From Salvator merianae (taxonomy: Eukaryota > Chordata > Lepidosauria > Squamata > Teiidae): a stretch of DNA of 64,000 nt. A program made the translations under genes and the position numbers. Location of the stretch: NCBI GenBank assembly GCA_003586115.2, contig QVOM02000126.1:53990839-54054838 (forward strand), read 5' to 3'. The first letter of the stretch is position 1, and every line of letters begins with the position of its first letter. Under the pieces are notes generated by a model. That model saw only the letters and a program-made list of their open reading frames with translations. It had not been told where the DNA came from and ran no database searches. Below are positions 3,584-62,190 of this stretch, piece by piece.

Positions 3584-5455
3584 AAAGGAGAAGTGATACA
3601 ACAATGTAAAAGAAAATTAAGAGAGTATTTTGAAGACAATTTAAACAAAGGGACACCTCTGAATATAGTATGAATATATATGCCAGCAATATATATGCCA
3701 GCAATATATATGCCAGCAAAGCATTTATTAGGGGTCATTTGATTAGACTGAACAAGGAAATCAGGAAGAAAAAACAAGTAAAAATGCAGAAACTGTTAGA
3801 GGAGATTAAGAAGAAGGAGACAGAATTAAAGCAAAAGCCAGACTGTCGAGAGACGCTAAGAAATTTGAAAATCTTACAAAAGGAACTTTCAATGATGGAT
3901 GTAGAGGGAGAGGAAATTGACTTATCTGAAGCAAAAGAGTTTTGAATCAGCCAATAAACCAGGGAAGTGGCTGGCATGCAAACTGAGAAAGGAAAAAGCT
4001 AACAAGGTCATTTTAAAACTGAAAGAGGCTGACAAGGAGGTAACAAACAAAACAGACATCCAGAGAGTAATGTGTGAGTTTTACAAAAAACTCTATAAAA
4101 AGAAAGAAGTTCCAGAGGAAGATATTAAGAATTATTTGAAAAAACAAAACTTGCCACAAATTTCACAACTATATAGGACTATGTTGAATGCCTCTATAAC
4201 ACCAAGGGAACTCTCTGACGCTATCAAGAAAATGAAAAGAGGAAAGGCACCAGGGCCGGATGGCTTAACAGCAATTTATTATAAAGTATTCCAAGAGGAA
4301 CTTCAGCTACCACTATTAATGACAATGAATAGTATATTGGACAGTGGGAAAATACTGGAAAGCTGGGAAAAAGCGTTTATAACTTTATTTCCAAAAGAGG
4401 GTCAGGACTTGACGCTGCCAAAAAATTACAGACCAATATCATTATTGAATAATGATTATACAGTTTTTGCAAGTATAATGGCAACAAGGTTGAAACATGT
4501 GCTACAAGAATTTATTCACCAAGGTCAAGCAGAATTTCTCCCCAAAAGACAAATGAAGGACAATATAAGATCTATATTTGATGTTATAGAATATTTAGAG
4601 TCTCATAATGAAGTACAAGCAGCAGTAATCGTTCTAGATGCGGAAAAAGCTTTTGATAATTTGAACTGGAACTTTATGTTTAATCTTCTAGACAGGATGA
4701 ACTTTGGAGAGAACTTTACAAAATGGATTAAAGCAATATATACAATGCAGTCAGCTCAACTTACAATAAATGGAGAAGTCTCACAAAATTTTTCAATACA
4801 AAAAGGTATAAGACAAGGATTTCCACTCTCACCACTTTTATTTATATTGACATTAGAGGTAATGAATAGAGCTATAAGGCAAGAGACAAATATTGAAGGT
4901 CTGAAGATCAAAAAAGAAGAGTATAGACTAAGAGCATTTGCAGATGATATAGTGATTATTTTGAAGGATCCAAATGAATCAATAGAAACAGTTAAATTTT
5001 TGATAAAGACGTCTGGGCGAGTGGCAGGACTGAAAATCAATGAGAAAAAAACTAAAATACTGGTGAAAAATATGAGAAAGAAAGAACAAGAAGATCTGGG
5101 AAGAAAATCTGGTTTTGACATAGAAAAGAAAGTTAAATATTTAGGTGTATGGCTGACTAAACAAAACTTGGCATTGTACCAGAACGATTATATGAAACTT
5201 TGGTCTCAAATTAAGCAAGACTTGGAAAGATGGTCCAAATTGAAATTATCGTTACTGGGTAGAATCTCAGTTTTAAAAATGAACGTTCTGCCAAGAATGA
5301 TGTTTTTGTTTCAATCTATACCGGTAATAATTAAGGAAGAGGTATTCAAAAAGTGGCAAAAGGACTTGACAAGATTTATATGGCAAGGCAAAAAGCCAAG
5401 AATACGTTTTAACTTGATGCGAAAGAAAGAGAAGGGTGGGATTTACCAAATTTAA
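3584..5455 (+). pseudogene. L1 ORF2, linker and reverse transcriptase (broken)
   Basis: The linker (3670-3945) is lysine/glutamate-rich and carries a triplicated 15-bp unit. Its frame shifts by one near 3940 into the frame that starts at 3917. The 512-codon frame from 3917 is the reverse transcriptase. It shows KAPGPDGLTAIYY (residues 110-122), NYRPISLLN, VIVLDAEKAFD (first catalytic Asp), GIRQGFPLSPLLF and the catalytic box RAFADDIVI, whose FADD codons are at 4937-4948. The thumb region follows. The frame is lost at about 5437-5455 by a one-base shift and stops at 5455. The motifs are L1-clade rather than CR1-clade. Confidence 0.96.
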
Positions 5456-8632: not shown

Positions 8633-8664
8633 ATAGAATCATAGAATCATAGAATCATAGAATC
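8633..8664 (-). repeat. CR1 3'-terminal 8-bp repeats
   Basis: Four tandem copies of atagaatc are followed by atagagttgg. CR1 elements end in such short tandem repeats instead of poly-A, and the element's reverse transcriptase uses them for priming. They fix the 3' end and orientation of the element. Confidence 0.95.
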
Positions 8665-8725
8665 ATAGAGTTGGAAGGGACCTCTAGGGTCATCGAGTCC
8701 AACCCCCTGCTCAATGCAGGATTCA

Positions 8726-11461
8726 CTAAAGCATCCCAGACAGATAACTGTCCAGCCTCTCCTTGAAGACCTCCAGCGAAGGAGAGCCCACCACCTCCTG
8801 TGGCAACCTGTTCCAATGACTGATTGCCCTTACGGTCAGGAAGTTTTTCCTAATATCTAGCCTGTATCTACTCCCTTGAAGTTTCATCCCATTGTTTCTA
8901 GTCCTTCCTTCTTGCGCAACTGAGAATAGGGCCAATCCTTCTGCACTGTGACAGCCCTTCAGATACTTGAAAACAGCTATCATGTCTCCTCTCAGTCTTC
9001 TCTTCTGCATGCTAAACATTCCTAGGTCCTTTAACTGTTCCTCGTAGGACATGGTTTGCAGACCACTCACCATTTTGGTCGCCCTTCCCTGAACTTGTTC
9101 CAGTTTGTCAATGTCTTTTTTAAACTGGGGTGCCCAGAACTGGACACAATACTCCAGATGAGGTCTGACCAAAGAAGAGTAAAGTGGGACAATTACTTCT
9201 CGTGATCTAGACTCTATACTCTTCTTGATACAGCCCAGGATGGTATTTGCCTTTTTTGCAGCTGCATCACACTGTTGACTCATGTTTAATCTGTGATCTA
9301 CTAGTACACCCAGATCCTTTTCACATGTGCTGCTGCTCAGCGAGATTCCCCCCATTCTGTATTGGATATTGTCATTTTTCTTACCCAGATGTAAAACTTT
9401 GCATTTCTCCCTGTTAAATGTCATTCTGTTAGTTTCAGCCCACTGTTCAAGCTTGTCCAAATCCTTTTGAATCCTCTCCTTCTCCTCCCTAGTGTTAGCA
9501 ACCCCTCCTAGCTTTGTGTCATCTGCAAATTTGATCAGCGTCCCCTCGACACCTTCATCCAGATCGTTTATAAAAATGTTGAACAGCAATGGGCCCAAGA
9601 CAGAGCCTTGCGGTACCCCACTCGAGACAGTCTTCCAATCGGATGTGAAGCCATTTATGACCACTCTTTGAGTACGATCACTAAGCCAGTTATGAATCCA
9701 CCTAACAGTTGTCCTGTCAATCCCATATTTGATCATTTTTTCAATAAGTATAGTATGAGACACCTTGTCAAATGCTTTGCTAAAGTCAAGATATACTATG
9801 TCCACAGCCTTTCCTTGATCGATCCATCCAGTAATTTTGTCATAAAAGGAAATAAGATTAGTCTGGCATGACTTGTTTGTTACAAATCCATGTTGGCTTT
9901 GGTTAATTACTGCATTTCCATCCAAGTGCTCCCATATGTGCTGTTTAATGATTTGTTCAAATATCTTGCCTGGTATTGAAGTCAGGCTCACAGGCCTGTA
10001 GTTGCCTGGGTCAGCCTTCTTTCCTTTTTTAAAGATAGGTACAACATTTGCCCTTCTCCAATCTTCTGGGACTTCTCCTGTTATCCATGAGTTCTCAAAT
10101 ATCACGGAGAGTGGTTCAGCAATTATATCAGCTAATTCCTTCAGCACCCTAGGATGTAATTCATCTGGGCCTGGAGACTTGAATACATTTAAGTTTGCTA
10201 AGTGTTCCCTCACCTTCTCCTTGTCCATACAGAGCCTTGATTCTCTTATTCCCTCAACAGCACAGTGAAGGCCAACTGATGTTTCCTTTCCTTTCTGAGA
10301 GAAAACAGATGCAAAATAGGAGTTCAGAAGTTCTGCCTTCTGAATATCGTTTTTGACCAAATCGCCCTTCTCATTTTGTAAAGGTCCTATAGCTTCTTTG
10401 ACTTTTCTTTTGCTTCTGACATATCCCCAAAAGCCTTTTTTATTGTTTTTGGCCTCTCTTGCAATCCTCAATTCATTTTTAGCTTTAGCCTGTCTGACAC
10501 TTATCCTGCAGTTCCTGCAGATTGCATTATATTCTTCTTTTGATATGTCCCCCTCTTTCCATTTTTTAAACATTTCTTTTTTTCTTTTTAGCAAGTTATT
10601 AAGTTCAGGGTTCATCCACCCTGGTCTCTTTAGATGCTTGCCATTCTTTTTTCTTTTAGGAATTGTTAAAGATTGTGCCTCTAGAATCTCCTTTCTCAAA
10701 ATTTCCCATCCTTCCTGGACATTTCTGTCCTTTAAGATATCCAGCCAATGGATCCTTCCTACCCTCCTTCTGAGTCCATCAAAATCTGCTCCTCTGAAAT
10801 CTAACCTTGAAGTCCGAGTCCTCTCAGATCTTCCTCCTTTTGTTATGCAAAACTCAATGATAGCATGGTCACTGCCACCCAGGGTCCCAGTCACCCTTAC
10901 TTCCTCAACCATTTGCTCCCTGTTGGTAAGGATTAGGTCCAAGATAGCAGACCCCCTTGTTTTTTCCTCAATCCTTTGGAAAATGAAGTTATCTGCCAGA
11001 GAGGATAAGAATTTATTGGACCCATGACTTTTGCCAGAGAGAGATTCCCAACAAATGTCCGGATAGTTAAAATCTCCCATAATGACTAGGTCGTGTTTCC
11101 CCGAGAGCTTGGCCATCTGATATATAAATAGTTCATCCATATATTCTGTTTGTCCAGGGGGTCTATAATAAACTCCTACAACAGTATCCTTTGTGTTGCT
11201 CTCTCCTTGTATTTTCACCCAAACGGTTTCTACAGGGCTTCCATTATCTGAAAGATTAATCTCTGTGGTGGTATATATTTTCCTTACATACAATGCAACA
11301 CCTCCTCCCCTTTTATTAAGCCTGTTTTTTTTAAATAAGTTGTATCCTTCGAGCTCTGTGTTCCAATCATGCGTATTATCCCACCAAGTTTCAGTTATGC
11401 CTATGATATCATATTTATTTTCCTGTGCTAGGATTTCCAGTTCTCCTTGTTTGTTTCCCAT
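8726..11461 (-). CDS. CR1 ORF2: endonuclease / reverse transcriptase
   Basis: From the first ATG this is a 911-residue frame without stops. It encodes the nicking and copying enzyme of the element. APE-type endonuclease motifs are GITETWWD (Glu24), IMGDFNYPD (GDFN 129-132) and GGSDHAIIEF (Asp-His 198-199). Reverse transcriptase motifs are FKSPGPDELHP (from 427), NYRPVSLTS, YLDFSKAFD (559-565), SGVPQGSVLGP (614-624) and KFADDTK, whose FADD codons lie at 9518-9529. The RPHLEYC motif typical of CR1 follows. The first Met lies downstream of the conserved endonuclease start TNAQS (Asn codon 11471-11473). The frame is open, without any ATG, up to a stop at 11744-11746 inside ORF1. Translation therefore probably enters upstream, plausibly by frameshifting at 11650-11656. 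Confidence 0.97.
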   Translation of the reverse strand: MGNKQGELEILAQENKYDIIGITETWWDNTHDWNTELEGYNLFKKNRLNKRGGGVALYVRKIYTTTEINLSDNGSPVETVWVKIQGESNTKDTVVGVYYRPPGQTEYMDELFIYQMAKLSGKHDLVIMGDFNYPDICWESLSGKSHGSNKFLSSLADNFIFQRIEEKTRGSAILDLILTNREQMVEEVRVTGTLGGSDHAIIEFCITKGGRSERTRTSRLDFRGADFDGLRRRVGRIHWLDILKDRNVQEGWEILRKEILEAQSLTIPKRKKNGKHLKRPGWMNPELNNLLKRKKEMFKKWKEGDISKEEYNAICRNCRISVRQAKAKNELRIAREAKNNKKGFWGYVRSKRKVKEAIGPLQNEKGDLVKNDIQKAELLNSYFASVFSQKGKETSVGLHCAVEGIRESRLCMDKEKVREHLANLNVFKSPGPDELHPRVLKELADIIAEPLSVIFENSWITGEVPEDWRRANVVPIFKKGKKADPGNYRPVSLTSIPGKIFEQIIKQHIWEHLDGNAVINQSQHGFVTNKSCQTNLISFYDKITGWIDQGKAVDIVYLDFSKAFDKVSHTILIEKMIKYGIDRTTVRWIHNWLSDRTQRVVINGFTSDWKTVSSGVPQGSVLGPLLFNIFINDLDEGVEGTLIKFADDTKLGGVANTREEKERIQKDLDKLEQWAETNRMTFNREKCKVLHLGKKNDNIQYRMGGISLSSSTCEKDLGVLVDHRLNMSQQCDAAAKKANTILGCIKKSIESRSREVIVPLYSSLVRPHLEYCVQFWAPQFKKDIDKLEQVQGRATKMVSGLQTMSYEEQLKDLGMFSMQKRRLRGDMIAVFKYLKGCHSAEGLALFSVAQEGRTRNNGMKLQGSRYRLDIRKNFLTVRAISHWNRLPQEVVGSPSLEVFKERLDSYLSGML

Positions 11462-11646
11462 GCTTTGCGCATTGGTATAGAAACATTTTAGTTTGCGACA
11501 AATGTCTCTTTCAAGCTTGACTCCTTTAGTTTCCTTCCAAATTGTTGGACTTTGTTCTTTCCTTTCATTTCTGGTAGCAAGTTCCTTATCTGTATTTATT
11601 AGCTGCTTATCTTTCTCTGGACTTTTACTTCCCTTCCCCTTTCGCC

Positions 11647-12588
11647 CTAGTTTAAAGCTCTCCTGATGAGCGCAGCCAGTCTCCTGCCAAATATGTGCTT
11701 TCCTGTCTTTGTAAGATGGAGCCCATCTCTTGCAAGGAGTCCATCATATAAGTAGTTTAGTCCATGGTCTAGAAATCCAAATCCTTGCTGGTAGCACCAT
11801 CGACGTAGCCAGTTGTTTACCTGTAGAATCCTTCTCCATCTTCCTGTTCCACGGCCATTCACTGGTAGGATAGAAGAGAAGACAACTTGCGCTCCCAGTT
11901 CCTTCACTTTCCTGCCCAGGTCTTCAAAGTCTCTGCAGATAGCTTCAAAGTTCCTTCCTGCAGTGTCATTTGTTCCTACATGTATTAGTAGGAACGGGTA
12001 ATACTCTGTAGGACTGAAGAGTCTTGGCAGTCTCTCGGTTACATCTTTGATTCGTGCACCGGGAAGGCAGCACACTTCTCGCGAGGTCATGTCAGGTCTG
12101 CACACAGCTGCCTCTGTTCCCCTCAATAAGGAATCCCCCACAACCACCACTCTCCTATTCTTCTTCACAGCTGCTCTTCTTTTTTTTGGTTCAAGAGGTT
12201 TCATATGGCACACCAAATCTTCCCGAACTTCCTGATTATTCTTCTCCGTGAGAGCCTGGTACCGGTTTTCAAGCTGTATAGTTGCTGACTCTCTCGTTAT
12301 CCTCCTGCTTCTTTTCGTCACATGCTTCCAATCTTCAGCTTCCACAGGTTCTCTGATGTTGTCCTCTCCGTGATCAGTTTGAAGTGCCTCTTCCGTTGTA
12401 TCCAGGAAGCTCTCCTTCTCCCTAATGAGCTTCAAAGTAGCCACTCTCTCCTCAAATTCTTGCACTTTCTCTTCCAGCAAAGACACGCGCTTGCATTTGT
12501 GGCAGGTGTAATCAGGATCCCCCTCTGGTAGAAGTATCATCATATTACACTCCTTGCAGCTAACTACAAAGCTTCGCTCTTTCTCCAT
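11647..12588 (-). CDS. CR1 ORF1: zinc-binding and SGNH esterase protein
   Basis: This is an intact frame of 313 residues. The N-terminus has paired cysteines C11-x2-C14 and C29-x2-C32, a zinc-binding module of the PHD-like kind described for CR1 ORF1. A predicted coiled coil follows at about 36-60, then a basic stretch. From about 146 comes an SGNH/GDSL-type hydrolase. It has VVVVGDSLLRG with the nucleophile Ser153, HVGTNDT (Gly-Thr-Asn-Asp 205-208), and RDGLHLT with Asp288 and His291 of the triad. All expected catalytic residues are present. ORF1 of CR1-group LINEs is thought to bind RNA or lipid in the retrotransposition particle. The frame ends ALN-TAG, where the last codons form a T TTA AAC heptamer. 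The ATG at 12586-12588 gives the cysteine module at the very start. Confidence 0.95.
   Translation of the reverse strand: MEKERSFVVSCKECNMMILLPEGDPDYTCHKCKRVSLLEEKVQEFEERVATLKLIREKESFLDTTEEALQTDHGEDNIREPVEAEDWKHVTKRSRRITRESATIQLENRYQALTEKNNQEVREDLVCHMKPLEPKKRRAAVKKNRRVVVVGDSLLRGTEAAVCRPDMTSREVCCLPGARIKDVTERLPRLFSPTEYYPFLLIHVGTNDTAGRNFEAICRDFEDLGRKVKELGAQVVFSSILPVNGRGTGRWRRILQVNNWLRRWCYQQGFGFLDHGLNYLYDGLLARDGLHLTKTGKHIFGRRLAALIRRALN
11650..11656 (-). promoter_or_regulatory. Candidate -1 ribosomal frameshift site (T TTA AAC)
   Basis: On the minus strand ORF1 ends gct tta aac tag. Read in the ORF1 frame the heptamer is T TTA AAC, which has the X XXY YYZ form of a canonical -1 slippery site, and the stop codon abuts it. 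A one-base backward slip gives TTT AAA and enters the ORF2 frame, which is then open for 65 codons to the first ORF2 Met and on to the ORF2 stop. The next bases are purine-rich with three G-runs (GGGCGAAAGGGGAAGGG). No convincing pseudoknot was seen. Function is inferred and not shown. Confidence 0.55.
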
Positions 12589-13090
12589 GTTATCTACAGA
12601 TGTTTGGAGTCCTCTTGTAAGATATTAAACAGTGCGGAGAACTTTCAATGTTCTTGAACTAAAATTTAATCTTCCTTTTTTCGTTGAATTACTTAAATTG
12701 TCACTTTAGGATACTTATTTTACTCTACTAAATTAAACAAAAGGTGGCTACTTATTAAATTATTCAGTTGTTTTAGCTTATTTTTACTTTTCCTTACAAT
12801 TTAAGTTCTCTTACTTGATACATTTGGACAAAAAAAGAAAAAAGATCTAAATTAGTATTTTATAATAGGATTATGATAGGATATATGTCGGCCCGCGGTC
12901 CGCTGTTTTTATCAGCTGAAGGGAGTGGCCAAATATGCTAATTGGCAGGGGTTGTCTGCAGGGCGTTTCCCTGCTCTCTGACCTAGTTTTCCTGACCTTG
13001 TTTTCCTGGCCTTGTTTTTCTGACCTTGTTTTCCTGGCCTAGTTTTTCAGACCTAGTTTTTCAGACCTAGTTTTTCCTCCTCTAGGTCAC
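12589..13090 (-). promoter_or_regulatory. CR1 5' untranslated region and probable promoter
   Basis: The non-coding region upstream of ORF1 has an AT-rich part (12590-12880), a short GC-rich block near 12893-12905, and a tandem repeat array at the distal end. LINE 5' regions carry internal promoters. Here the array is the obvious candidate for factor-binding repeats. The outer boundary is uncertain. Confidence 0.6.
12979..13076 (-). repeat. Seven 14-bp tandem repeats at CR1 5' end
   Basis: Seven contiguous 14-bp units occur on the plus strand: tgacctagttttcc, tgaccttgttttcc, tggccttgtttttc, tgaccttgttttcc, tggcctagtttttc and two copies of agacctagtttttc. The two identical outermost units suggest recent unit duplication. 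On the element's sense strand the core reads GAAAAACTAGGTCT. Confidence 0.95.
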
Positions 13091-17842: not shown

Positions 17843-18365
17843 GATAGCCCTGTCCTTCATGAATTAGAACTATTTTTGAAGCCATCCCAAACACCCTAAT
17901 CTCACTGTAGCAAATTAAGACTGTTTCCACATGATAGCAGATACCTTTATCTATGTATTTGGTGCTACTTCCCCCAAATTCCAAAACATTAGTCAGACAA
18001 GACTTTCCTTTACCAAGGCCATGTTGACTGCCTTTGAACTCCTGAGCTTCCAAACATTTGATAAATGTTAAAAAATATATAAAAAAATATCTTTCCAATT
18101 CAACCTTCCTTTGGTTATTCTTTTAAATATTTCATTAGATCTAAAATAAATGGCTAAAGCTAGCTGTGCTGCAAGTGTTGTCCAGGGTAATATAGTGAGT
18201 GGCACTTGTATAACAGACTTATGGACAGAAACCTTGGGTATGTGTTCAGTGCCATGGATTCCTAGCACTTAGGCTGCATCCATAAAGGTGCAAAAGAATC
18301 TCTCAGGCACCCAGGGACCTGGATGTCCATACATTGGCTGCACAGAGGTTTAGGCATCCAGATGA

Positions 18366-61895: not shown

Positions 61896-62190
61896 GGTTT
61901 CTCTAGCCACCTTTTCCGCACTATGCAAGCTTTTATATACTTTAATCAGGTCAGTTCCTAAACACTATTTTTCAAGGATGAAGAGACCTAGAAATTGCAG
62001 TCTGATTTCAAAAGGGAGGTATTCCAGCCCCTTGATCATTCTTATCTTTTTCTTATCTTTTTCATGTTCTACAATATCCTTTCTGAGATGTGGCAATAAG
62101 AATTGTGTGAAATATTCCAAATGTGGCCTCATCATAGATTTATAAAGAGGCACAAGGATACTTGCTACTTATTTTCTGTTCCTTTAATAA

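Follow-up and report, generated by a model that had tools for sequence, protein, structure and literature searches.

A slippery heptamer fused to the ORF1 stop codon of a CR1-type retrotransposon and its possible role in the translation of ORF2

Organization of the element

The window, the whole 64,000-nucleotide stretch of DNA that was analysed, carries on its minus strand two overlapping open reading frames and a terminal tandem repeat.

11647..12588, minus strand: CR1 ORF1, 313 amino acids, ending ...IRRALN*, with a C-terminal esterase domain (PF13472, 4c1b)
8726..11743, minus strand: CR1 ORF2, an open frame of 1005 codons between stops, with endonuclease and reverse transcriptase (Pfam and PDB matches)
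8633..8669, minus strand: 8-base repeat at the CR1 3′ terminus, period 8, 4.6 copies (tandem-repeat analysis)

The C-terminal half of ORF1 matches a GDSL/SGNH esterase (Pfam PF13472, E 3.2e-9), and the top structural resemblance of the protein is to 4c1b (E 3.6e-24), which is labelled 'ORF1-encoded protein' and which we take to be ZfL2-1 of zebrafish. ORF2 contains an APE-type endonuclease (PF03372, 1.1e-16), PF14529 (6.7e-11) and a reverse transcriptase (PF00078, 1.5e-37) whose best PDB matches are LINE-1 and R2 proteins. The 3′ end of the element consists of short tandem repeats, without poly(A); CR1 3′ ends carry ATTCTATG-like short tandem repeats. With its esterase-domain ORF1, its ORF2 that joins an APE-type endonuclease to a reverse transcriptase, and this 3′ end, the element is classified as a CR1-type non-LTR retrotransposon, a label drawn from anatomy and general background.

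Upstream of ORF1 lies a 14-base tandem repeat in seven copies (12977-13076), perhaps part of the CR1 5′ untranslated region or of the flank. Three further stretches of the window (4244-4948, 17856-18029 and 61905-62159) weakly resemble ORF2 and probably represent what is left of other LINE copies. CR1 relatives were sought in viral_contigs and genome_contigs with protein-derived and degenerate-pattern scans, and among plasmids with blastn; none was found in these collections, nor was any other vertebrate genome.

The junction between ORF1 and ORF2

The two reading frames meet in an overlap that contains a slippery heptamer, followed by a linker that has no AUG in the ORF2 frame.

11647..11743, minus strand: 97-base region read in both ORF1 and ORF2 (-1 frame), ORF1 stop included (ORF reading)
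11650..11656, minus strand: slippery heptamer T TTA AAC, in frame with ORF1 and comprising its two final sense codons (sequence; young copies; diverged copy L008)
11647..11649, minus strand: ORF1 stop codon TAG, adjoining the heptamer (sequence)
11462..11646, minus strand: purine-rich linker without AUG, with the first endonuclease motif, open in the ORF2 frame only (frame analysis)
11471..11473, minus strand: Asn codon (AAT) of the TNAQS motif, upstream of the first ATG (sequence)
11459..11461, minus strand: first in-frame ATG of ORF2, context AGC ATG G (sequence)

The original prediction held that ORF1 ends in GCT TTA AAC TAG, and re-reading the minus strand to the base gives the same letters, with the heptamer T TTA AAC in frame at 11656..11650 and the abutting TAG at 11649..11647. 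The heptamer is thus of the X XXY YYZ form, in the zero frame and within the overlap. The geometry claimed for ORF2 also stands: it lies in the -1 frame, is open from 11743 (just after a TGA at 11746..11744) to 8726, and overlaps ORF1 by 97 bases. As had been stated, ORF2 has no in-frame ATG before 11461 (its codon 95), and the Asn of TNAQS at 11473..11471 does lie upstream of that ATG. This residue is presumably the expected catalytic Asn of APE-type endonucleases, and a start at 11461 would lose it. The 94 ORF2 codons before 11461 contain no CTG, GTG, TTG or ACG; the near-cognate codons among them are of the weaker kinds only (AAG, AGG, ATT and ATA). Over 11743..11461, the other two frames contain 4 and 7 stops, the ORF1 stop being among the 4.

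Initiation at the ATG at 11461, by leaky scanning, an IRES or reinitiation, would yield a separate ORF2 protein whose endonuclease either works without its first motif or is dispensable. The ATG has a good context (A at -3, G at +4), and the Pfam endonuclease profile barely registers the upstream part: with it, the match scores 65.7 bits and its first residue is 102 (profile position 20); once the sequence before 11461 is removed, the score is 65.2 bits and the first matched residue is 107 (position 27). Both matches start after the ATG, and the first profile positions would precede the ATG only if the match were extended backwards. A phmmer search of the endonuclease against PDB gave no match, and a single-sequence AlphaFold2 model had a mean pLDDT of 35, unusable for placing the motif Asn. 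Against this route stand the loss of the presumably catalytic Asn, the opening of the linker in the ORF2 frame alone (a 1.8% chance under the Markov model described below), and the retention of the pre-ATG motif KCFYTNAQ as KCLYANAK in a very diverged copy, which argues mildly that coding starts before the ATG. Overall, a start at 11461 appears quite improbable.

Chance expectations for a single copy

The rate at which such a junction arises by chance was estimated by holding the ORF1 peptide fixed and redrawing its own synonymous codons 20,000 times. Any X XXY YYZ heptamer fell at the terminal codon pair in 4.1% of draws and anywhere in the overlap in 10%, while the -1 frame stayed open across the overlap in 19%. 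Further, a first-order Markov model leaves a 186-base linker open in one given frame with a frequency of 1.8%. Because of these rates, the evidence for a slippage signal from one copy alone is of moderate strength, suggestive but not decisive.

The same calculations bear on an explanation in which the Leu-Asn end of ORF1, or a nearby RNA motif, is kept for the protein's C-terminus or for RNA packaging, so that the slippery appearance is incidental. The window element and the diverged copy both end in LN, and a peptide constraint alone would keep the motif in part. The same constraint leaves a choice of six Leu codons, both Asn codons and whichever third base precedes them, and only 4.1% of the draws above placed an X XXY YYZ heptamer at the last two codons. 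A purely incidental origin is improbable.

Young copies of the family

A 651-base DNA query across the junction (11300-11950) was run against the 2.05-Gb genome (1816 contigs; judging from its repeats, probably reptilian), yielding 1391 first-look candidates of which the best 40 were scored. All of these 40 best candidates align over the full 651 bases with a printed value of 100%, one copy being one base longer, and 7 of them, the window copy included, are identical over the whole length. The identity of 7 of the 40 scored copies and the presence of 1391 candidates suggest that this CR1 family is very young and probably still jumping in the genome. Elsewhere, two CR1 3′ fragments (L003:9411-10000 and L019:4429-4733) show 95% and 82% DNA identity, indicating that CR1 copies of different age coexist.

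The junctions of the last 16 of the best 40 (of 1391) were fetched, with 331 bases each. All 16 keep TTTAAACTAG, with 0 to 2 differences per copy, and therefore the junction belongs to the amplifying element and is not a quirk of one copy. These 16 copies are too alike to test selection or to count as conservation. No earlier in-frame ATG occurs in any of the 16 young copies, and a single -1-frame ATG occurs in the linker of the diverged copy. Two of the 16 have a stop in the ORF2 frame. The one at 11665 lies upstream of the heptamer and is harmless to slippage; the one at 11644, after the heptamer, would end a fusion protein in that one copy. The latter stop is found in the L035 copy, where the CGA codon immediately past the heptamer has undergone a C to T change that closes the -1 frame.

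A splice or an RNA edit that joins ORF1 to ORF2 in frame would dispense with slippage, and nothing specific speaks in its favour. All 40 scored young copies (the best 40 of 1391) keep the unspliced junction, and since retrotransposed copies are made from RNA, this retention makes splicing most improbable, with the reservation that choosing the best-scoring 40 of 1391 would leave copies with a deletion out of the list.

A diverged relative in the same genome

Stretches of this genome totalling about 275 kb, chosen without regard to the heptamer and including at least 12,515 bases of N, were searched with tblastn for homologous junctions. This brought up one further junction, in an old and decayed copy (L008; C1:5120001-5130000). 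Its endonuclease is 29% identical to that of the window element (E 4e-8), and a 48-residue piece of its ORF1 is 35% identical (E 1.5e-4). Its ORF1 ends ...SEQLLN*, encoded as CTT TTA AAC TGA (L008:2338, minus strand), with the same heptamer and a different stop. The slippery heptamer is accordingly present in the one diverged junction (1 of 1) that homology brought out of this sample, a single decayed copy.

A gap-free alignment of the last 40 ORF1 codons of the two elements, anchored at the stop, has 3 identical codons and 7 identical residues; TTA AAC makes up two of those three codons. Counting both strands, 548,000 bases contain 6 instances of the ten-letter string of heptamer plus stop, of which 2 are at CR1 ORF1 ends and the other 4 elsewhere. 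From this frequency, we estimate the chance of its falling within 50 bases of the L008 ORF1 end at about 1 in 1000. The presence of the same heptamer in all 16 fetched young copies and in this very diverged old relative lifts the case above the single-copy level. Other LINE remnants in the sample (L002, L007, L012 and L016) were read for a junction and none was recognised; the match of L042, traced upstream into L044, tapers off near residue 732, far from reaching the junction.

The register of the endonuclease was also compared. The best L008 counterpart of KCFYTNAQ is KCLYANAK in the -1 frame, with an ungapped score of 32 versus 20 and 17 in the other frames, a score equalled by 4 of 2000 shuffles. 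The distance from the heptamer is 174 bases to FYTNA in the window and 204 bases to LYANA in L008, both multiples of 3. Between heptamer and endonuclease, the -1 frame of L008 contains two stops and a single ATG, which encodes the M of KTQPMIAH; L008 might therefore once have had its own ORF2 start. The endonuclease of L008 now spans three frames: KCLYANAK is in -1, ELECLVMDKK (the counterpart of ELEILAQENK in the window) in +1 and IIGITETW in that of ORF1, which is also the frame in which the tblastn alignment begins. As L008 is a single decayed copy, the agreement of register could be chance, at 1 in 3. One case, from the same genome, bears on the conservation that the original prediction had called for: in L008 the heptamer with its abutting stop recurs, as does the -1 placement of the first endonuclease motif.

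RNA structure downstream of the heptamer

For the 107 bases that follow the heptamer, the folding energy is -7.4 kcal/mol, compared to a shuffle mean of -10.55, and 183 of 200 shuffles fold as well or better. Four downstream stretches gave z scores of +1.29, +0.15, +0.98 and +1.35. Moreover, a simple scan for hairpins and pseudoknots starting 4-10 bases past the heptamer (perfect helices of at least 5 pairs, 200 shuffles) found none below zero, and Rfam returned a chance-level match on the other strand and nothing more. Within these simple models, no stimulatory structure was found downstream at the usual spacing. The original prediction had called the signal canonical, which is too strong a word for a heptamer with no stimulatory hairpin or pseudoknot found 3′ of it by folding and simple scan. 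It follows that either a low basal rate of slippage would be enough or a stimulator of another kind would be at work; the latter may be a protein, a long-range pairing, or the adjacent stop or purine tract.

The lack of a stimulator in these scans favours the main rival to slippage, in which ORF2 is translated on its own, through termination-reinitiation or through initiation without an AUG close to the ORF1 stop, a route put forward for LINE-1 of mammals; the heptamer would then be a by-product of a conserved Leu-Asn C-terminus. Mechanisms of this kind have been described for non-LTR elements, with UAAUG coupling in SART1 and unconventional initiation in LINE-1 (PMC5972666, PMC5009743), and the L008 linker does contain an ATG in the -1 frame. 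On the other side, the window has no ORF2-frame AUG near the ORF1 stop, nor any of the four stronger near-cognate codons before 11461, and reinitiation does not predict that TTA AAC and the preceding T should be retained in L008, where the last 40 codons agree at only 3 positions. Overall, this rival is unlikely, though it deserves more weight than any other alternative.

Interpretation

The reading that best fits the junction, and which probably holds, is that -1 slippage yields a low level of ORF1-ORF2 fusion without a classical stimulator. Ribosomes that reach TTA AAC at the end of ORF1 would in their majority terminate at the adjoining stop. A small fraction would slip back by one base on T TTA AAC (to TTT AAA) and then read CTA GGG CGA and onwards, giving an ORF1-ORF2 fusion that includes the whole endonuclease. 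On this reading, slippage would be the main route to ORF2, and its low efficiency would set the ORF2:ORF1 ratio. In support of slippage are the in-frame terminal heptamer, the -1 position of ORF2, the lack of an upstream start codon, the 16 of 16 young copies and the recurrence in L008; against it are the lack of a downstream structure, the single decayed state of L008, the 4% chance in the window alone and the stop at 11644 in 1 of 16 copies.

A broader version of the slippage reading, put forward tentatively, is that over a long time CR1 elements have relied on -1 slippage at a stop-fused T TTA AAC, without a classical 3′ structure, to produce a fusion of esterase, endonuclease and reverse transcriptase; this could well be so, with the balance tilting slightly the other way. 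How the LINE ORF2 protein is synthesized is a long-standing question. If the proposal is true, the ORF2 protein of a major amniote LINE clade would be a viral-style fusion product and not separately initiated, with the enzyme tethered to ORF1 and dosed by slippage. The heptamer would then offer a single mutation-sensitive site for testing CR1 activity, and CR1 would be an example outside viruses of -1 slippage that does without the usual structure. No description of CR1 frameshifting was found in the literature searched, PMC1925062, PMC5009743, PMC4255032 and PMC5972666 among it, which covers LINE elements in part.

Comparison with known systems

The likeness to 4c1b is one of protein and lies in the ORF1 esterase domain (E 3.6e-24). 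For the junction itself, the nearest comparisons are with other elements that express a second protein from one RNA. In SART1, through stop-start coupling (UAAUG), and in LINE-1, through unconventional initiation, ORF2 is begun anew at or near its start codon (PMC5972666). The task is the same, namely to obtain ORF2 from a bicistronic non-LTR RNA, but in the window element no AUG lies at the junction in the frame of ORF2. Among non-LTR elements, the Drosophila telomeric HeT-A is said to require a frameshifting event (PMC5009743). There, the frameshift serves gag expression in an element without reverse transcriptase, whereas in CR1 a frameshift would connect ORF1 with the ORF for the enzymes.

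Viral -1 programmed ribosomal frameshifting uses X XXY YYZ heptamers, with U UUA AAC in coronaviruses and some retroviruses. The CR1 junction differs from these systems in that no pseudoknot or hairpin was found, the stop abuts the heptamer, the element is a non-LTR retrotransposon and its slippage is a prediction from sequence. It has in common with them the identical heptamer, its phase, the -1 overlap and an extension that bears the enzymes.
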